Translations under genes and position numbers: made by a program
NCBI RefSeq assembly: GCF_008087625.1
Contig: NZ_CP042997.1
Location: 10,230,001 to 10,294,000, forward strand
Direction of reading: 5' to 3'
Length of the DNA stretch: 64,000 bases
From: Aquisphaera giovannonii
GTDB lineage: Bacteria; Planctomycetota; Planctomycetia; Isosphaerales; Isosphaeraceae
The notes under the pieces: generated by a model
The model's database searches: none
What the model was told of the DNA's origin: nothing
The model's input: the letters and a program-made list of their open reading frames with translations, nothing else
In this document: one piece after another, positions 2,704 to 14,232 of the stretch
How positions within the stretch are numbered: position 1 is the first letter of the stretch
How the letters are laid out: each line of letters starts with the position of its first letter

Positions 2704-3309
2704 ATGGACGACTCGCCCACGACCCGGCTGAGCCTCCTGGCCAGGCTCCGCTCGCCCCGGGACGAGCGGGCCTGGGAGGAGTTCGCCGCGATCTACGGCC
2801 CGCTCCTCGTCCGCCTGGCCCGGCGCCGGGGGCTGCAGGCGGCCGACGCGGCGGACCTGGCCCAGGAGGTCTTCGGGGCCGTCGCCTCCGCGATCGACGG
2901 CTACGACCCCGACCCGGCCAAAGGGTCGTTCCGCGCCTGGCTCTTCCGGATCGCCCGCAACCTGACGGTCAACTTCCTGGTGAAGCGCCGGAGGCACCCG
3001 CCGGGCCCCGGGGGCTCGGACGCCGCGGCGCTGCTGGAGGCCCAGCCGGCCCCGGAGGACCCATCCGACTTCGAGCTGGAGTACCGGCGGCAGCTCTTCG
3101 TCTGGGCGGCCGACCGGGCCCGCGGCGAGTTCACCGAGGCGGCCTGGCGGGCCTTCTGGATGGCCGGCGTGGAGGGCCGCCCCGCGGCCGAGGTCGCGGC
3201 GGAGCTGAAGACGACGGTCGGCACGGTCTACGTCCACAAGAGCCGCGTCATGGCGCGGCTCCGCCGCGAGATCGAGCGGGTCGAGGGGCGCGAGGCGGAC
3301 GACAGGTGA
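2704..3309 (+). CDS. RNA polymerase ECF-type sigma-70 factor
   Basis: This 201-residue protein contains only regions 2 and 4, as in extracytoplasmic-function sigma factors. Region 2 is at residues ~15-100, with the DLAQEVF core-binding helix and the [12 protein letters not shown] -10 recognition segment; region 4 is at ~140-195, with the [17 protein letters not shown] helix-turn-helix for the -35 element. ATG 2704 was preferred because sequence similarity begins there; an earlier ATG at 2691 is in another frame. The stop codon overlaps a GTG of the following kinase gene (GTGA at 3306-3309), so the two are probably translationally coupled. Planctomycetes are known to have ECF groups paired with Ser/Thr kinases; this looks like such a pair. 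Confidence 0.92.
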
Positions 3310-3329
3310 CGCAAGACGGGGAGCAGGCG

Positions 3330-6300
3330 ATGCGACCGGCCGGGGACGACTGCAACACCGAGAGGCTGGCGAGTCTCCTGGCCGACGCCCTGGCCGAGGC
3401 CGACCGGGCCGAGGCCATCGGGCACCTCGACCGCTGCGAGGCCTGCCGCGCCGCGCTCGAGGGGATGGCGGCCGAGGCCTCGTGGTGGGGCGAGCTCCAG
3501 TCCGCCCTCCGACCGGATGACCCCGACGACGGCGGCTCGATCGGGGCGTCGCACTGGCTCGGCTTCCTCGCCCCGTCGGAGCGGCCGGGCTCGCTCGGCC
3601 GGCTCGGGGCGTACGAGGTCTCCGGCGTCATCGGCCGCGGCGGGATGGGCCTGGTGCTCCGGGCGTTCGACGAGGCCCTCAACCGGTACGTGGCCATCAA
3701 GGTCCTGGATCCGTCGAAGGCGCCCGACGTCGCGGCACGCCGCCGGTTCGGGCGAGAGGCCCGCGCGGCGGCGGCGGTGGTCCACGACCACGTCATCCCG
3801 ATCCACGCGGTGCACGAGTCGGCCGGCGTGCCCTACCTCGTCATGCCGTTCGTCGCCGGGCCGTCGCTCCAGGAGCGGATCGACCGGGGCGGGCCCATGC
3901 AGGTCCGCGAGGTGCTCCGGGTCGGGATGCAGGTCGCCTCGGGCCTGGCCGCCGCCCACGCGCAGGGGCTCGTGCACCGCGACATCAAGCCGGCCAACAT
4001 CCTCCTGGAGCACAACGTCGAGCGAGTCCGGATCACCGACTTCGGCCTCGCCCGGGCCGTGGACGACGCGTCCATGACGCAGGCGGGGACCGTCGCCGGG
4101 ACGCCGCAGTACATGGCCCCGGAGCAGGCCCGCTGCCAGGCGCTGGACGGCCGGGCCGACCTGTTCAGCCTGGGGTGCGTCCTCTATGCGATGGCCGCCG
4201 GCCGGCCGCCGTTCGTCGCCGGGTCCGCCATGGCGACCTTGCGGCTCGTCTGCGAGGCCCCGCACCGCCCGCTCCGCGCGGCGAACCCGGACGTCCCCGA
4301 CTGGCTCTCGGCGATCGTCGACCGGCTCCTGGAGAAGGACCCCGGCCGGCGCTTCGCCACCGCGGCCGAGGCGGCCGACCTCCTGGGCCGGGGCCTCGCC
4401 CACCTCCAGCAGCCGGGCGTCGCGCCGCTGCGGCTCGAGGGCTGGCCCCCCGGCCGTCCCCGGGCGGGCCGTCGCCGACTCGTCCGGCTCGGCGCGGCCC
4501 TGGGCCTGGTCGCCATCACGGGGATGATCACGTCTTCCATCTCGACGCGGGAGCCCGATCCGATGCGTGCCCTCCTGATCCTGCTCGGCGTCGCCACCGC
4601 CTCGGCCCACGCCAGCGACGCCATCGAGGCCGACTTCGCCCGCCAGGGCATCGACCGCTGGCTCTTCCAGACGAAGGCGAACGACACCGGCGGGCGCTGG
4701 GAGCCGACGGCGGCCGGCGTCCGCGCCACCCTGCCGAAGGGGCCCTCCAACAACCAGCCCACGCAGCTCGTCGGCCAGTTCCGGCTCGAGGGGGACTTCG
4801 AGATCATGGCCGAGTACGAGATCGAGTCGCTCCCCAAGGCCACCCGGGACAAATCCGCGAAGGACGCGATGGCTCCATCGAATAATGTCGAAATCGGCAT
4901 GTCCGGGCCGGACTGGATGGTCACGTGCTTCCGGTCGAACACCGAGGCGGCCGACGACCAGATCGGCTATTACGCGAAGACCCCGGCCGGCGAGGTCAGG
5001 TTCAACGCGGCCCCGCTGACGCGGCCCTCGGAGCGCCGGGGCCGGCTCGGCTTCCGGCGGGTGGGGGGCATGCTCACGATCCTCCACGATCAATACGACG
5101 GGGTCGTCCTGGAGACCGACCCGATCCGGTTCGGGATCGAGCCCGTCTCCGAGCCGTCGCTGCGGCTGATCAAGCTCAACAGCCGCGATGCGCTGGCGGC
5201 GACCTACACCCGCCTGGACATCAAGGCGGACCGCATCGTCCGGTTCCGGGAGCCGCCGCGGAGCTGGTGGAGCAAGGCGGCCTGGCCCGCCGGGATCACG
5301 CTGGCGGTCGCGGCCTTCGCGCTCCTGCTCCTGTGGACCTTCTCGGGCGGCTCCGGGGATGAGGAGCCGGACGGCCGAGACGACGCGGCCGCCCCTCGCA
5401 AGCCGGCGGTCGTCGACGACGGCGCCGCGCTCGCCGGGGACCGGAAGGGGAAGGTCCCGCGGGGCGCGTCGCGGCCGCCGGCGCGGGGCTTCACGCTGAT
5501 CGAGCTCCTCGTGGTGATCTCGATCCTCGGCGTCCTGATCGCCCTGCTGCTACCCGCGGTCCAGGCGGCGCGCGAGGCATCCCGCCGCGCCCAGTGCGCG
5601 AACAACCTGAAGCAGATCGGCCTGGCGCTGGCGAACTACGAGGCCGCGCTGCGGGCCTACCCGTTCGGTGTCGGCGGGGGCGGGCCGAAAGGCAGCACGG
5701 TCGGCCGGTGGTCGGCGCAGTCGCAGCTCCTGGCGTACATGGAGCAGCCGGCGCTCTTCCACGCGATCAACTTCGCCGGGCTCCCCTGGCAGAATACCAC
5801 CGATCCCGCCATCGGTCCGATGAACGGCACCATCCTGACGACGCCGGTCGCGGCCTTCCTCTGCCCGTCCGACGTCGACCGTATCGATGACCCGCTGCAC
5901 ACGGCCCACAACAGCTATCGGGCCTGCGCCGGGACGCTCCCCTACAACCTGAAGGACGACTCCCCCGACAGGACCGGCCGGAACAATGGGATGTACTGGT
6001 ATCAGAGCGCGATCACCCCGGCGGCGATCCGCGACGGCCTGAGCAATACCGCCTCGTTCAGCGAGCGTTGCCTCGGGGACACGGCCGCGCCGGACGCCCT
6101 GTCCGACCTCTACCTCGTCGGCACGTCGCCCGACGAGTGTCGGTCCGCCGGCCCGCTCGCGACCCCGCGCCTGACCGACCCCCACCAGTGGTCGGGCGGC
6201 CGCTGGGCGGACGGCTCCATGGTCTACACCCGCTATCACCACGCCTTCTCCCCCGGCGGGCCGAGCTGCCTCCTGGGCGGGGTGCAGGACTACGACAGCC

Positions 6301-6458
6301 AGGAGCTCGTCACCGCGACGAGCCGCCACCCCGGCGGCGTCAACATGATGACCGCCGACGGCTCCGTCCACTTCATCAAGGAGACAATCGACGCCCGCGT
6401 CTGGTCCGCCCTCGCCACCATCTCCGGCGGCGAGGCGATCGATGCGGGGGCGTACTGA
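3330..6458 (+). CDS. Ser/Thr kinase fused to DUF1583-like ectodomain and DUF1559 pseudopilin
   Basis: One uninterrupted frame encodes 1042 residues. Residues 32-39 (H-x3-C-x2-C) look like an anti-sigma zinc finger. Residues ~94-360 are a Hanks kinase: GRGGMG loop, Lys124, HRD at 216-218, DFG Asp237 and a MAPEQ segment, so it should be active. A membrane helix (384-404) precedes a beta-rich, DUF1583-like domain (~415-635). A second helix (652-671) leads to a linker and a prepilin motif (Gly720, Phe721, Glu725: [10 protein letters not shown]), then a full DUF1559 domain ending in an HPGG...DGSVHF motif. The start was set at ATG 3330 (GGGGAG six bases upstream); GTG 3306 is an alternative. An internal ATG at 4563 with GGGAG and a signal-like segment could also initiate. 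Predicted topology puts the kinase in the cytoplasm and both other domains outside. Confidence 0.85.
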
Positions 6459-6937: not shown

Positions 6938-7142
6938 CCTGCGACCAAAGACCCCGTGACGCTGACGCGGAGGCCAGCCACGAGACGACGTGAAGGCGCG
7001 CACCGACGCCGTCGCGTCTCCCTGATTGACCCTCCCGCAACGGACTCGTAGGATCGTGGCGTCCTGTACGCGTCCCTGCTCTGTCGAGATGTCAACCGGC
7101 CGCACGGTCCCGGCGAGTCCCGCAAGGCGATGAGGCACGACG

Positions 7143-8576
7143 ATGGCCGACCGACCTTACATCTTCTTCGAGCTGACCAATGCGCTGTGCTCGAAGTGCA
7201 TGCGCAAGGTCGAGGCCAAGGTGGTGATCCAGGACGGGCGCGTTTACATGCACAAATTCTGCCCCGAGCACAGGGCGGAGCGGGTGCTCGTCTCGACGGA
7301 CGCGGACTACTACCAGTTCAGCCGGCGGACGCTCAAGCCGGGGCAGATGCCCATCAAGTTCCACACCGAGATCGAGCGCGGGTGCCCGTTCGACTGCGGG
7401 CTCTGCCCGGACCACGAGCAGCACAGCTGCGTGGCCCTGGTGGAGATCACCGACCACTGCAACCTGACCTGCCCCGTCTGCTACGCCGACAGCTCGCCCC
7501 GGCGCGAGGCGCACCGGTCGCTGGAGCAGATTGCATTCATGCTCGACGCGGTGGTGAGGAGCGAGGGCAACCCGGACGTCGTCCAGATCTCCGGCGGCGA
7601 GCCGACGATCCACCCGGACTTCTTCGCGATCCTCGACCTGGCGAAGGCCCGGCCGATCAAGCACCTGATGCTCAACACCAACGGCATCCGGATCGCCCGC
7701 GAGCCCGCGTTCGCCCGCCGGCTGGCCGAGTACCGCCGCGGCTTCGAGGTCTACCTCCAGTTCGACTCGCTCGACGCGGCCCCGCAGAAGGCCCTCCGCG
7801 GCGCGGACCTGACCGAGGTCCACAACAGGGCGCTCGACGCCCTGGACGAGCACGGGATCTCGACCACCCTCGTCGTGACGCTCAAGAAGGGGCTGAACGA
7901 CGACCAGATCGGCGCGATCATCGACTTCGCCCTGTCGCGGCGTTGCGTCCGCGGGATCACGTTCCAGCCGATCCAGGCCGCCGGCCGCGTCGAGGGCTTC
8001 GACCACGCCCGCGACCGCCTGACGCTCTCCGAGGTCCGGTCGAAGATCCTGGAGCAGTCGCCCATCTTCCAGCCGAAGGACGTCGTCCCGGTCCCCTGCC
8101 ACCCCGACTGCCTGGCCATGGCCTACGCCCTGAAGCTCGAGGGGAAGGTCATCCCGCTGACGCAGCTCATGGATCCGACGACGCTGCTGGAGCTCCAGGG
8201 CAACACCGTGCTCAACGAGCAGGACCCTCGGCTGCGGAAGCTCGTCGTCGAGCTCTTCTCCACGTCGCACTCGCCGGACTCCTCGGCCTGGACGCTCCGC
8301 CAGCTCCTCTGCTGCCTGCCCGAGTTCACGGCGCCGCCGGAGCTGACGTATGATAAGGTGTTCCGCATCCTGATCGTCCAGTTCATGGACGTGTACAGCA
8401 TGGACGTCCGCTCGGTGAAGAAGTCGTGCCTCCACATCGTCCACCCGGACGGGCGGATGATCCCCTTCGACACGTACAACCTCTTCTACCGCGACCGCGA
8501 CGCCTCGGCGGCGATCCCGGACATGACGGCGGGGTTGCCGCTCGTCCAGATCGGGTCGGCGGGAGGAGCGTCATGA
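7143..8576 (+). CDS. Radical SAM enzyme of the Tes/MJ0619-like group
   Basis: The protein is 477 residues. Residues 16-43 form a zinc-ribbon-like C-x2-C...C-x2-H unit. Cys81, Cys85, Cys88 and Cys96 sit in a CPFDCGLCPDHEQHSC block typical of the group that includes archaeal tetraether synthase and the methanopterin methylase MJ0619. The radical SAM cluster motif is Cys106-x3-Cys110-x2-Cys113 (CNLTCPVC), followed by the SAM-contacting SGGEPTIHPDF motif. Established members bind more than one iron-sulfur cluster and make C-C bonds at unactivated carbons, in lipids for Tes. The gene overlaps the next one by ATGA at 8573-8576. Its neighbours are membrane proteins and an Lgt-like protein, so a lipid substrate is a reasonable inference, not a demonstration. 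Confidence 0.85.
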   Translation: MADRPYIFFELTNALCSKCMRKVEAKVVIQDGRVYMHKFCPEHRAERVLVSTDADYYQFSRRTLKPGQMPIKFHTEIERGCPFDCGLCPDHEQHSCVALVEITDHCNLTCPVCYADSSPRREAHRSLEQIAFMLDAVVRSEGNPDVVQISGGEPTIHPDFFAILDLAKARPIKHLMLNTNGIRIAREPAFARRLAEYRRGFEVYLQFDSLDAAPQKALRGADLTEVHNRALDALDEHGISTTLVVTLKKGLNDDQIGAIIDFALSRRCVRGITFQPIQAAGRVEGFDHARDRLTLSEVRSKILEQSPIFQPKDVVPVPCHPDCLAMAYALKLEGKVIPLTQLMDPTTLLELQGNTVLNEQDPRLRKLVVELFSTSHSPDSSAWTLRQLLCCLPEFTAPPELTYDKVFRILIVQFMDVYSMDVRSVKKSCLHIVHPDGRMIPFDTYNLFYRDRDASAAIPDMTAGLPLVQIGSAGGAS

Positions 8577-9040
8577 GCGACGCCGGGCCGCCCCCGGTGC
8601 CGGAGGCCGGGCCGGCCCCCGAGGGCGAGCTGTATTGCCTCGGGTGCGGCGCCCGCAACGACGCCGGCGCCGCGGAATGCTGGCTCTGCAACGGCCGCTC
8701 GCTGGTGAAGGCGGGCCCGGGCGGGCGGCCGCCGGAGCCGGCCTCGCCGCAGCGATTCAGCTTCACCATCGCCGCCCTGATGGTGTTGGTCGCCGTCGTC
8801 GCCGCCTGCCTGGGCCTCTACACGGCCGCGCCGGGCCTGCTGCTCCTGGTGGCGATCACGTCCGCCCCCGCGGTGGCGCTCGTCGAATACCGGGCGGCGA
8901 AGCGGCGGAAGCGGGGCATCCCCATGTCCCACGCCGAGCGGTTCGGCTGCTTCCTCCTGCTCCTGGTCCTCATCCCCGTGCTCGTGGCCGTCGCGGTCCT
9001 CAGCGCCTTGTTCATCTACTGCTCCCTGGGGGGCAGATAG
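8573..9040 (+). CDS. Zinc-ribbon membrane protein (first paralogue)
   Basis: The gene encodes 155 residues. The N-terminus has a four-cysteine ribbon, CLGCGARNDAGAAECWLC (C-x2-C...C-x2-C), a Pro/Gly linker, a pair of adjacent hydrophobic helices at about residues 63-100, a basic KRRKRGIP loop, and another hydrophobic segment near the C-terminus. The start ATG overlaps the stop of the radical SAM gene and is preceded by GGAGGAG, so the two should be co-translated. It is clearly paralogous to the protein encoded at 9897-10352: same ribbon, same membrane layout and a shared loop motif (GIPMS/GLPMS-AER). The family is not otherwise recognised. It may be a cytoplasmic metal or iron-sulfur docking partner at the membrane, which is an inference. 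Confidence 0.8.
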   Translation: MSDAGPPPVPEAGPAPEGELYCLGCGARNDAGAAECWLCNGRSLVKAGPGGRPPEPASPQRFSFTIAALMVLVAVVAACLGLYTAAPGLLLLVAITSAPAVALVEYRAAKRRKRGIPMSHAERFGCFLLLLVLIPVLVAVAVLSALFIYCSLGGR

Positions 9041-9207
9041 ACCTCGATGAGCCGGCCTCTCGCGTGGTGGACTTCACCCTGGGCCCGCGGAGATCGGCCG
9101 CGCGATTGACCGCCCCGGGCCCGCGTCGTAGGATCCGGGCGACTCTTCACCTCCCGCGTGCCCGGCCGCCCGGTCGCGGCATCGATCCGGGCGAGAGGGG
9201 CTCGACG

Positions 9208-9900
9208 ATGGCCGACCGACCCTACGACTCCCCCGACCTCGCCACCACGCCGGGGGACCGTGCCTGGTTCTTGTCTTCCCGGGTGCAGGACTACCGCGGC
9301 GAGGCCCGCGTCAACCTTCTGCGGCTCGTCGCGATCGCGGCGTTTTACCTGATCGAGCTGGCGAGCCATCACGGCGTGAGTCTCGGCCCGCTGGCGATCC
9401 CGGCCGCGGGCGACCGGGCCTTCCACGCGGCGGCCACGGCGCTGGCGGCCGGTTGGGTGTCGCTGGCGGCCGCGGTGCAGCTCGGGCTGGGGCGGGGCAT
9501 CCTCCCCGCGGCGCTCAAGTACGTGACGACCGGGCTGGACGTCGTCCTGCTGACGGCCCTGCTGATGATCGCCGACGGCCCGCGGAGCCCGCTCGTGGCC
9601 GGCTACTTCCTGATCCTGGCGGCCTCCGCGATGCGGTTCCGATTGAGTCTCGTCTGGTTCGCGACCGCGGGCGTGATGGCCGGCTACGCCTGGCTTCAAG
9701 GCTGGGCGCTGTGGCTGGAACCGCACCGCGACGTGCGGGTGCCGCGGTATCACCAGCTCATCGTGCTGACGGCGCTGGGGCTCTGCGGGATCATCCAGGG
9801 CCAGGTCATCCGCCGGGTCCGGGCGATGGTCGTCGAAAATGCCGCGCGGCTGGCGGCGACGCCGGGCGCGACGGACCCGACGGGGGGAGGCCTGCCGTGA
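9208..9900 (+). CDS. Polytopic membrane protein of unknown function
   Basis: This 230-residue protein has about six hydrophobic segments between residues ~37 and ~210, a short polar N-terminus and an Ala-rich C-terminal tail. The layout resembles the membrane-anchor half of some sensor proteins or cyclases, but no catalytic or signalling domain follows. The start ATG 9208 has GAGAGGGG upstream. Its first six residues (MADRPY) are identical to those of the radical SAM protein at 7143, perhaps by local duplication of a translation-start region. The stop overlaps the next gene's GTG (GTGA at 9897-9900). It sits between the two zinc-ribbon paralogues, which suggests it is part of the same assembly. 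Confidence 0.72.
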   Translation: MADRPYDSPDLATTPGDRAWFLSSRVQDYRGEARVNLLRLVAIAAFYLIELASHHGVSLGPLAIPAAGDRAFHAAATALAAGWVSLAAAVQLGLGRGILPAALKYVTTGLDVVLLTALLMIADGPRSPLVAGYFLILAASAMRFRLSLVWFATAGVMAGYAWLQGWALWLEPHRDVRVPRYHQLIVLTALGLCGIIQGQVIRRVRAMVVENAARLAATPGATDPTGGGLP

Positions 9901-10352
9901 GCAAGCCCGGATCGGAGGCGAGGCCGCCCGCGGCCGACGGGCTCGTCTGCCGCGAGTGTGGGGCGAGCAACGACGCCGGCTCCTCGGAGTGCTGGCTCTG
10001 CAACGGCCGCTCCCTCGCGAGCGCCGCCGCGGGGTCGTCGCCACGGCCGCGCGGATTCTTCTCGTCGATCTCCGGCTGGATGGTGGCGATCGCGGGCCTC
10101 GCCGTCTGCATGGGGCTCTACGCCCTCGCGCCGGGGATGCTGTTCCTCGCGGCGATCTCGGTGCTCCCCGCCATCGCGGCCGTCGAGGTGAAGGCCGCGA
10201 GGCGGAGGCGGCTGGGCCTGCCCATGTCGGCGGCCGAGCGGGTCGTCATCTTCGTGCTGATCACGGTCGTCACGCCCGTCCTCGTCGTCGGCGCGGCCGT
10301 CATCGCCCTGATCGCGTACTGCTCGATGACGGGCCCCGTGAACTTCCACTAG
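9897..10352 (+). CDS. Zinc-ribbon membrane protein (second paralogue)
   Basis: The gene encodes 151 residues starting at GTG 9897, which overlaps the preceding stop by four bases. The N-terminal CRECGASNDAGSSECWLC ribbon, central hydrophobic pair, RRRRLGLPMSAAER loop and terminal hydrophobic segment correspond one for one with the protein at 8573-9040, so the two arose by duplication. Sequence between the conserved elements has diverged, implying both have been kept for some time. The Lgt-like gene follows after 12 bases. Function is unknown; the conserved ribbon and the operon position beside a multi-cluster radical SAM enzyme suggest a cofactor, substrate-presenting or docking role. Confidence 0.8.
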   Translation: MSKPGSEARPPAADGLVCRECGASNDAGSSECWLCNGRSLASAAAGSSPRPRGFFSSISGWMVAIAGLAVCMGLYALAPGMLFLAAISVLPAIAAVEVKAARRRRLGLPMSAAERVVIFVLITVVTPVLVVGAAVIALIAYCSMTGPVNFH

Positions 10353-10364
10353 CGGACACCCCGC

Positions 10365-11093
10365 ATGACGGACCTCGCCCCCGCCCCGCGACCCGGCCCC
10401 GCCTACGCGGCGATCATGCTGGCGGCGATCGCCACGGCGGCCCTGCTCCGCCGCAAGCCGGATCGGCGTCTGCCCCTGCCCCTCTCCCAGCGACTCGGGA
10501 TCGCGCTGGGGGCCTTCTGCGGGGCGATGATCGGGGCCAAGTTGCCGTACGTGCTGGCGGACTGGGAGGGGCTGAAGTCCGGCGCCGCGTGGCTGGACAA
10601 CGGCAAGACGATCCTCGCCGGCCTGGTCGGCGGCTATCTCGGCGTGGAGACGGCCAAGGCGCTGCTGGGCGTGACCATCAAGACGGGCGACAGCTTCGCC
10701 GTCCCGGTGGCCGCGGCGGTGGCCGTCGGCCGGCTCGCCTGCTTCGTGGGCGGCTGCTGCTACGGCAAGCCGACCTCGCTCCCCTGGGGCATCACGTTCC
10801 ACGACGGCATCCCCCGGCACCCCACCCAGCTCTACGAGTCCGCCTTCCACGCGGGGATGGCCGTGTTCCTGGCGTGGACGGAACGCCGCGGCCTGTTCGT
10901 CCATCAACGGATCAAGCTGTACCTCATCGCCTACCTCGCCTACCGGTTCGCCACCGAGTACCTCCGACCCGAGCCCGTCGTCCTCCTCGGCCTGACCGCC
11001 TACCAGCTCGGGGCGCTGGCCCTGCTCCCCGCGTTCGCCTACCTCTGGCACCGCGACTCGGCCGCCGCGACAATGGCCGCGAGCACGGAGTGA
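10365..11093 (+). CDS. Divergent Lgt-like (prolipoprotein diacylglyceryl transferase family) membrane protein
   Basis: This 242-residue polytopic protein contains the family core: GR-x-A-C-F-V-G-G-C-C-Y-G-KPT, PWGITF and RHPTQLYES, corresponding to the Lgt signature and the HPSQLYE block. Two positions I recall as important in E. coli Lgt look altered: the HGG motif before the signature is AGLVGG here, and the Asn of the GR-x-x-N signature is Cys. The cysteine-rich version occurs in a broad uncharacterised subgroup. Normal Lgt transfers diacylglycerol from phosphatidylglycerol to lipobox cysteines; this version may transfer or accept a different lipid head group. It is the last gene of the cassette starting at 7143. 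Confidence 0.78.
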   Translation: MTDLAPAPRPGPAYAAIMLAAIATAALLRRKPDRRLPLPLSQRLGIALGAFCGAMIGAKLPYVLADWEGLKSGAAWLDNGKTILAGLVGGYLGVETAKALLGVTIKTGDSFAVPVAAAVAVGRLACFVGGCCYGKPTSLPWGITFHDGIPRHPTQLYESAFHAGMAVFLAWTERRGLFVHQRIKLYLIAYLAYRFATEYLRPEPVVLLGLTAYQLGALALLPAFAYLWHRDSAAATMAASTE

Positions 11094-11153: not shown

Positions 11154-12067
11154 ATGAGCGACGCGTTGCAACCCATCGGCGGGAAGTCCTTCGAGGACCT
11201 GAAGCAGACCAACGAGCACGGGGCCGAGTACTGGAGCGCCCGGGACATCCAGCCCCTCTTCGGCTACGGCCAGTGGCGGCGATTCGAGAACGCCATCAAG
11301 AAGGCCCAAACCTCTTGCGAGCAATAAGGGAACGACTGCGACCATCACTTTGCCGGCGCCGGCAAACCGATCACCGGCGGCAAGGGAGCCGTCCAGGTCG
11401 TCACCGACTATCATCTCTCCCGCTTCGCCTGCTACCTGATCGCCCAGAACGGCGACCCCAGGAAGCCGGAGATCGCCCAGGCCCAGCGGTACTTCGCGAT
11501 CCAGGCCCGCCGCCAGGAGCTCTCCGACGCCCACGCCGCGGTCGCGGAGCGGCTGGAACTGCGGCGGCAGGCTGGCGAGGAGTTCAAGAACCTCTCCGGA
11601 GCGGCCCGCCAGGCGGGGGTCAGCAACCCGATGTTCGGCGTCTTCCACGACGCCGGCTACAGGGGCATGTACGGGGGGCTCGGGCGAGACGCGATCAAGC
11701 GGAGGAAGAAGATCCCCGAGAAGGAGAACCTGACGGACCGGATGGACTCGACCGAGCTGGCCGCGAATCAGTTCCGCATGACTCAGGCTCGCGAGAAACT
11801 GGCCCGGGACGGGATCAAGACCGGCGAGCGGGCGATCCGGGCCCACGAGCAGGTGGGCAAGGAGGTCCGCGAGGCCATCCGGGCGGATCGGCGGCACGCT
11901 GCCCGGGAACATCCCGCCCGCCGAGCCCATCAAGGACGTCGAGAAGCGTCTGAAACAGGCCCGGCCCAGGCTGGTGCTCGATGAGCCCGACGCCGGGTGC
12001 CTCCTCGGCGAGACGCCCGCGGACGAGGAGTCGGGAAACGCGAGGGACGAGCCGGAGGCAAGTTAGA
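11154..12067 (+). pseudogene. dinD: dinD-like DNA-damage-inducible protein, broken by a stop and a frameshift
   Basis: The translation matches DinD throughout: an N-terminal FEDLKQTNEHGAEYWSARD block, DYHLSRFACYLIAQNGDP, QRYFAIQARRQEL, GYRGMYGGLG, DSTELAANQFR and a C-terminal GGTLP...IKDVEKRLKQ segment. Two lesions interrupt it. TAA at 11325-11327 replaces a residue that is Ser in the equivalent E. coli position (CEQ-stop-GN), compatible with a single TCA-to-TAA change. Near 11884-11888 the frame shifts by one base before GGTLPGNIPP, after which the reading frame continues to TAG at 12065-12067. GGGAG lies upstream of ATG 11154. DinD is a LexA-regulated inhibitor of RecA filaments in E. coli; no SOS box was recognised here. 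Confidence 0.85.
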
Positions 12068-13735: not shown

Positions 13736-14232
13736 CGGGCATCGAGCTTGCCGCGCGGGGGACGGCTCCGCGCGGCGGCCGCCCCGGGTGCGCGATGCGA
13801 CCGCGGGTCGCCGGGAGGAGGGAGACCGCGGGATATTACCCCGGCGAGGAAGAAGATCACGTTGTGCGGGTCCTGAGGCTCTCATACCCCTCGGTGAGGG
13901 GTGGGCCGGATTCGATTCCCCCCTTACGAAGGGGGGATATAGGGGGGTGTATTCGACCGCCTCGGCCTGAGGAATCCACCCCCTCCCACTCCCCCTTCGT
14001 AAGGGGGAGAGCCGGATTGGCTCCCCCTGCCGGGGGATGAACAGCACTTCCGGTAGCCGGAGCCCGACCTCCTTTCTCGCCGGGGTAATAGCCGGCCGCC
14101 CGGCCGACCGGCCAGGCCGCGGGTTTTTCGCTGGAATCTCCCCCGCCGCGCGTTACGCTCGGGCGCATCCCATCTCACGTCGGGTCGTCGCGACCCGGGA
14201 CATCGCGTCCCCGTCCAGAAGGAGGCCGCAAG
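13736..14232. repeat. Intergenic region with paired inverted repeats (family A)
   Basis: The arms CCCCCTTACGAAGGGGG (about 13918-13935) and CCCCCTTCGTAAGGGGG (about 13991-14007) are reverse complements, and further matching sequence (GGGGGGTG/CACCCCC) extends the pairing toward the middle. The whole unit spans about 13912-14022. A smaller hairpin (CCCCTCGGTGAGGGG) lies at 13887-13901. The same bipartite element occurs at 29596-29702. No gene was seen in this gap. Confidence 0.75.

Follow-up and report, generated by a model that had tools for sequence, protein, structure and literature searches.

In a 64-kb window (the whole stretch of DNA that was analysed) from the 10.5-Mb Planctomycetia genome of Aquisphaera giovannonii, positions 7143–11093 hold a cassette of five plus-strand genes, here called A to E, whose core recurs across bacterial phyla: A, a radical S-adenosylmethionine (SAM) protein predicted to have the full-length fold of GDGT-MAS/Tes; E, a membrane protein with a divergent Lgt fold; and B, a small membrane protein whose last helix ends in a cysteine. 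That these proteins act on a lipid or a lipid-linked substrate, as an earlier note on this DNA had suggested, is what the folds of A and E, together with the conserved lipid-site residues of E, most reasonably suggest. From the sequence evidence we tentatively propose, in addition, that A alters an alkyl tail in a lipid of the phosphatidylglycerol type, and that E transfers the diacylglyceryl part of such a lipid, possibly to the cysteine of B.

The association of A with E is tight. Among 298 Planctomycetia genomes, A was found in 79 and E in 77, with both present in 74; where the two lie on one contig (62 of 62 genomes) they share a strand and are less than 6 kb apart, the median distance being 443 bases. 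In 104 genomes of Paenibacillaceae, A and E occur in the identical 16 and are adjacent in all of them. In three of the Paenibacillaceae cassette genomes E is split, and A too is shortened in one of these, which is consistent with joint decay. A scan of a genome collection returned at least 544 relatives; the best 80 of these come from at least nine phyla, mostly with the genes in the order E-A-B (Bacillota, Cyanobacteriota and Melainabacteria, Bacteroidota, Pseudomonadota, Acidobacteriota, Myxococcota, Spirochaetota, Verrucomicrobiota and Planctomycetota), and the hosts include cultured Paenibacillus, Brevibacillus, Chitinophaga and cyanobacteria. The patchiness of this distribution, its recurrence in two phyla and its wide transfer together make chance co-occurrence untenable, and chance clustering of A to E was ruled out by the co-occurrence and adjacency in both phyla. 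The earlier note had accepted that absence of these families from each other's neighbourhood elsewhere would refute it; instead, the pairing of A and E recurs in two phyla and in the genome-collection scan. Its view of the five genes as one conserved unit has to be narrowed: the cross-phylum core consists of A, E and a B-type protein, and C and D are lineage additions.

Protein A (7143–8576, + strand; 477 aa) matches the radical SAM family PF04055 at 84.8 bits and also contains the HMPTM zinc-ribbon domain PF23545 (Pfam scan). Its best solved relative in a phmmer search is GDGT-MAS (7TOL; E=1.3e-64, residues 12–452), and an AlphaFold2 model of A aligns with 7tom over 399 residues at 28% identity (Z 35.2, rmsd (root-mean-square deviation) 3.1), compared with a Z of 18.7 for the best structural match outside GDGT-MAS (SuiB is the best peptide-modifying match). 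This model, built from only 16 sequences with a mean predicted local distance difference test score (pLDDT) of 68.9 and with weak stretches at 65–93 and 353–401, indicates that A has the full-length fold of GDGT-MAS. Even so, A scores 333 bits against the NCBIfam model for TrsS (NF045646; cut-off 490) and 283 bits against that for Tes (cut-off 450), while its relatives from other phyla reach 264–290 bits against the Tes model, also under the cut-off. We therefore regard A as a member of the superfamily that belongs to neither named family; the TrsS assignment was ruled out by this score. A role as a prokaryotic viperin of anti-phage defence was likewise ruled out, as pVip matches the radical SAM core only, at 44–56 bits.

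The metal sites of A refine this picture. Across 101 relatives of A, aligned with the ligand numbering of GDGT-MAS (PMC9433317), the rubredoxin-type CX2CX20CX2H motif, the N-terminal cluster ligands (three cysteines and a histidine) and the radical SAM CX3CX2C motif are invariant or nearly so. The C-terminal cluster has been remodelled in the clade to which the window belongs (clade 1): Cys470 is replaced by Asp or Glu, Tyr459 by Ile, Phe or His, and there are extra invariant cysteines at 319, 390 and 391. Another clade, confined to planctomycetes, retains Cys470 and has added Cys319. In archaeal GDGT-MAS homologs Met439 and Tyr459 are completely conserved (PMC9433317); the window's A has Val412 and Ile432 at these two sites, and across clade 1 the former is mostly Met or Val (Met in 53 of 87 proteins) and the latter is never Tyr. 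As the M439A mutant of GDGT-MAS is still active (PMC9433317), Met439 is not functionally diagnostic. The sub-threshold score, the remodelled C-terminal ligands and the replacement of Tyr459 rule out A as a Tes ortholog, such that the multi-cluster, Tes-like radical SAM protein of the earlier note stands as a superfamily assignment, made by fold and cluster motifs.

The higher score of A for TrsS than for Tes across its whole length would also suit a small soluble or redox substrate (pterin-like, or as in the TrsS system), with E and B serving as membrane anchors. We consider this rather improbable: A falls short of the TrsS cut-off, it is near-obligately paired with an Lgt-fold protein that retains lipid-site residues, and the pterin-methylase role of MJ0619, the founder of the family, was not corroborated by the authors of its structure (PMC9433317), a point that also removes support from the earlier note's statement that radical SAM relatives methylate. 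GDGT-MAS produced in E. coli binds bacterial phospholipids (PMC9433317).

Protein E (10365–11093, + strand; 242 aa; GRLACFVGGCCYG) belongs to the LGT family (PF01790, 101 bits against a cut-off of 24.9), and its AlphaFold2 model (pLDDT 89) matches 5azb over 230 residues with a Z of 14.1, the next entry scoring 5.8. The residues of its putative phosphatidylglycerol site, R143, Y235 and R239, are kept in 80 of 80 cassette relatives, as is an acidic residue (Glu or Asp) at position 243. In the same 80 proteins, Cys replaces Asn146 throughout, His103 of the HGGL motif is always Leu, Val, Thr, Met or Ile (a separate profile alignment agrees), and Glu151 has become Leu, Cys or another residue, being retained in none. 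Substitution of H103 or N146 abolishes the activity of E. coli Lgt (PMC4728403, PMC8689077). Two other Lgt genes, both scoring higher than E, are present elsewhere in the window's genome, and an additional Lgt match accompanies E in all 18 of the other cassette genomes checked. From this residue pattern and the presence of another Lgt in each genome checked, we conclude that E is an extra, non-canonical Lgt, which by its retained residues probably still acts on a phosphatidylglycerol-type lipid. The divergent Lgt described in the earlier note is thus borne out by fold and family, with H103, N146 and Glu151 replaced. The better-scoring genomic copies and the loss of H103 and N146 rule out E as the housekeeping Lgt. 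They also dispose of the idea that the cassette genes are unrelated neighbours, E being a plain housekeeping copy that simply belongs to the Lgt Pfam family: together with the near-perfect pairing and adjacency of A and E, they refute it, and we give it virtually no credence.

Another key observation concerns B (8573–9040, + strand; 155 aa; ...LFIYCSLGGR) and D (9897–10352, + strand; 151 aa, with a GTG start; ...LIAYCSMTGPVNFH), which had been noted earlier as paired zinc-ribbon membrane proteins and are indeed paralogs (52% identity), each with an N-terminal CX2CX10CX2C ribbon, about three helices and a cysteine where the last of these ends. In other phyla a ribbon-less small membrane protein is usually found immediately downstream of A, and the window's B and D are the planctomycete form of this cross-phylum B protein. 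Candidates for B were open reading frames picked solely by position and predicted helices; one lay downstream at 69 of 102 loci, and 58 were used after 11 (C, E or another gene) were removed by hand. The terminal cysteine is present in 56 of these 58. Once similar sequences are collapsed the figure is 34 of 36, whereas among small membrane proteins taken as controls from these contigs it is 7 of 50 (P=1e-14). In an alignment whose columns average 34% identity the cysteine reaches 97%, and the rest of B is hypervariable; the context of the cysteine, too, differs among B relatives. In 29 of 34 proteins the loop preceding the last helix carries a net positive charge, which by the positive-inside rule would put the cysteine at the outer face. 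No Pfam family exceeded its cut-off for the B proteins tested. We rejected B and D as lipobox lipoproteins: the lipobox ([LVI][ASTVI][GAS]C) requires an N-terminal signal peptide, and here the cysteine lies in the last helix (...FIYC, ...IAYC).

That B is hypervariable save for its cysteine, and that some loci carry several tandem copies (L055, L051, L064 and L067), would fit a ribosomally made substrate that A modifies, for example at or near the cysteine, and E lipidates to yield a lipopeptide or a modified membrane protein, with the tandem copies as alternative precursors; radical SAM enzymes often modify peptides. We hold this to be a minor prospect, bearing in mind that the predicted fold of A is much nearer to GDGT-MAS than to SuiB (Z of 35 against 18.7), that the cysteine is predicted to be at the outer face, remote from a cytoplasmic enzyme, and that no recurring export or peptidase gene was seen in the cassette.

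In the scheme that we tentatively prefer, A would work at the cytoplasmic face of the membrane, abstracting hydrogen from the alkyl tail of a phosphatidylglycerol-type lipid; its remodelled C-terminal cluster may hold the carbon intermediate, as in GDGT-MAS, while the tail is coupled or otherwise derivatised. At the outer face, E would bind a lipid of that class and transfer its diacylglyceryl part. Bearing in mind that E has lost His103 and Asn146 and gained an invariant cysteine in the same site, an ordinary lipobox lipoprotein is an improbable acceptor; the leading candidate would be the terminal-helix cysteine of B (and D), predicted by the positive-inside rule to end a helix that runs from inside to outside. 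A more complete version, in which the Tes-family A remodels the tail and E, which has an active-site cysteine of its own, moves the modified diacylglyceryl group to the intramembrane cysteine of B, so tethering a modified lipid (possibly bridged or spanning) to protein, seems to us a long shot. The tetraether-like or membrane-spanning lipids raised in the earlier note gained no support here, A being no ortholog of Tes; a membrane-spanning product of the cassette is nonetheless possible.

Alternatively, A might couple two acyl tails in the manner of Tes or Mss, with E and B merely holding or presenting the phosphatidylglycerol-type lipid and no protein being lipidated. The fold and lipid-enzyme ancestry of A speak for this, as does the proposal, never confirmed, that bacterial Tes homologs are tail-coupling enzymes (PMC8941075, PMC11868695); furthermore, Bacillota have spanning lipids with a phosphatidylglycerol head group (PMC13274423). 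We nevertheless think it unlikely: in clade 1 both Tyr459 and the Cys470 ligand are replaced, many hosts are cultured aerobes that are not known for spanning lipids, and the conserved cysteines of E and of B would be left unexplained.

Several points weigh against our proposal that A modifies the lipid and E transfers part of it. A is found in aerobic mesophiles, and we know of no lipid product in them. The downstream scan missed B at about 30 of the 102 loci, some of which have it upstream while at others none was seen. The residue preceding the cysteine of B is frequently not small, so this is not a standard lipobox. Moreover, the His103 column of E comes from a sequence alignment within a divergent region, and the P values for co-occurrence ignore shared ancestry.

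The history of the cassette appears to be mixed. In the tree of A (from a rapid search, the branch to the outgroup being very long), the window's protein falls in a multi-phylum clade (Shimodaira–Hasegawa approximate likelihood-ratio test, SH-aLRT, 99) that is separate from the planctomycete-only clade (98), whereas the window's E groups in a planctomycete clade (100/99). With a multi-phylum A and planctomycete E, B and C in one lineage, the two types of A appear interchangeable with a single set of partners. In planctomycetes, the zinc ribbon would have been gained by B, and C added to the cassette. Two further A-type proteins with very long branches and no detected E (L074 and L075, in genomes G142 and G090) may be a third branch whose function differs.

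Protein C (9208–9900, + strand; 230 aa), a planctomycete accessory with multiple transmembrane helices and no Pfam family, is a standalone version of the C-terminal membrane domain of planctomycete Ser/Thr-kinase-like proteins. Strong matches to C occur in 31 of the 79 genomes with A, adjoining A in 24, and nowhere else among the 298 Planctomycetia; weaker profile matches fall within open reading frames of mostly 550–840 aa, and the second match in the window's own genome corresponds to the membrane part at the C terminus of a Ser/Thr-kinase-like protein. At another locus (L069, 1527–3353, – strand) a kinase-like protein has a C-terminal membrane domain homologous to C, and long open reading frames with a domain of this kind are present in many planctomycetes.

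The layout of the locus offers a clue to how C arrived. The open reading frame calls match the five same-strand genes and the overlaps and spacings described before: A/B and C/D overlap by 4 bases, D and E are 12 bases apart, and the 167-base gap between B and C contains a promoter-like element of its own. This element, TTGACC-N15-CGTAGGATC (9106–9135, + strand, 102 bp upstream of C), is the second copy of one that lies 117 bp upstream of A (7026–7055, + strand); with zero mismatches the pattern has exactly two matches in the entire genome, both in the cassette, and its reversed control has none. A and C also begin with the identical six residues, MADRPY. In a congener (L049), whose cassette lacks C and D, the identical element occurs once, 119 bp upstream of A. 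The shared element and shared MADRPY suggest that the 5' end of C was copied from A; the simplest reading is that C arrived behind a copied A promoter and 5' end, which would give two co-regulated units, A-B and C-D-E. A scan of the window against Rfam for RNA elements gave zero matches.

Elsewhere in the window, a DinD-like gene downstream of the cassette (11154–11984) is broken by an in-frame stop (11325–11327) and by a frameshift near its end; the copy in the congener (L049, 9812–10666) is intact at 284 aa. The open reading frame at 3306–6458 (1050 aa) joins, by eye, a Ser/Thr-kinase-like part to a pilin-like (FTLIELLVV) DUF1559-type C-terminal part, and is either an unusual fusion or the result of a lost stop. 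The intergenic segment at 13795–14178 contains related repeat-like sequences that are open on both strands (PLTKGE / PPLRRGDIGG type) and looks like an interspersed repeat.

Bacterial Tes homologs, planctomycete ones included, have already been published as proteins of untested function (PMC8941075, PMC11868695). We found no published description of the A-E-B combination, of an Lgt-fold partner or of a Cys-tipped protein, in a search that lay mostly outside subscription papers and preprints. These homologs have been proposed as the missing makers of spanning lipids of the branched glycerol dialkyl glycerol tetraether (brGDGT) type, a major palaeoclimate proxy, and none has been confirmed; our analysis indicates that one large bacterial branch of the Tes superfamily has dedicated partners, namely a protein of the Lgt fold and a small membrane protein tipped by a cysteine. 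In the cultured hosts the cassette could be deleted and lipids measured. Either outcome would be useful, whether it revealed a lipid or a lipid-protein linkage not described before or warned that metagenomic counts of Tes homologs overstate the producers of spanning lipids.

Parallels can be drawn with five known systems. TrsS, a radical SAM (seleno)protein, is the top NCBIfam match of the whole of A, but A lies 157 bits under its equivalog cut-off, and TrsM, the usual partner of TrsS, has no counterpart here, no methyltransferase being found among A to E; to our knowledge TrsS has no established function. The bacterial membrane-spanning lipid synthase Mss, compared with A by description only, couples fatty-acid tails and is reported to share the Tes catalytic architecture in models (PMC13274423), but most reports of it are from anaerobes, in which it accompanies the ester reductase Ger. 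MYXO-CTERM proteins of the myxosortase system resemble B in having an invariant cysteine beside a transmembrane helix and a proposed Lgt-like lipidation (PMC11980579); unlike in B, their cysteine precedes the helix, the topology is inverted and no radical SAM partner has been described. Canonical Lgt (5AZB/5AZC) differs from E in having His103 and Asn146, where E has Cys at 146, and the hosts checked carry another Lgt; on the other hand, E shares its fold, the GR...G signature region, RHPxQLYE, Y235, R239, an acidic residue at 243 and a basic one at 246. Finally, GDGT-MAS/Tes (MJ0619; 7TOL/7TOM) is 28% identical to A, which, unlike it, is nearly always paired with an Lgt-fold partner, and the two have in common their fold, the rubredoxin-type metal site, the N-terminal auxiliary cluster, the CX3CX2C motif and, in A, an equivalent of the C-terminal Cys456.

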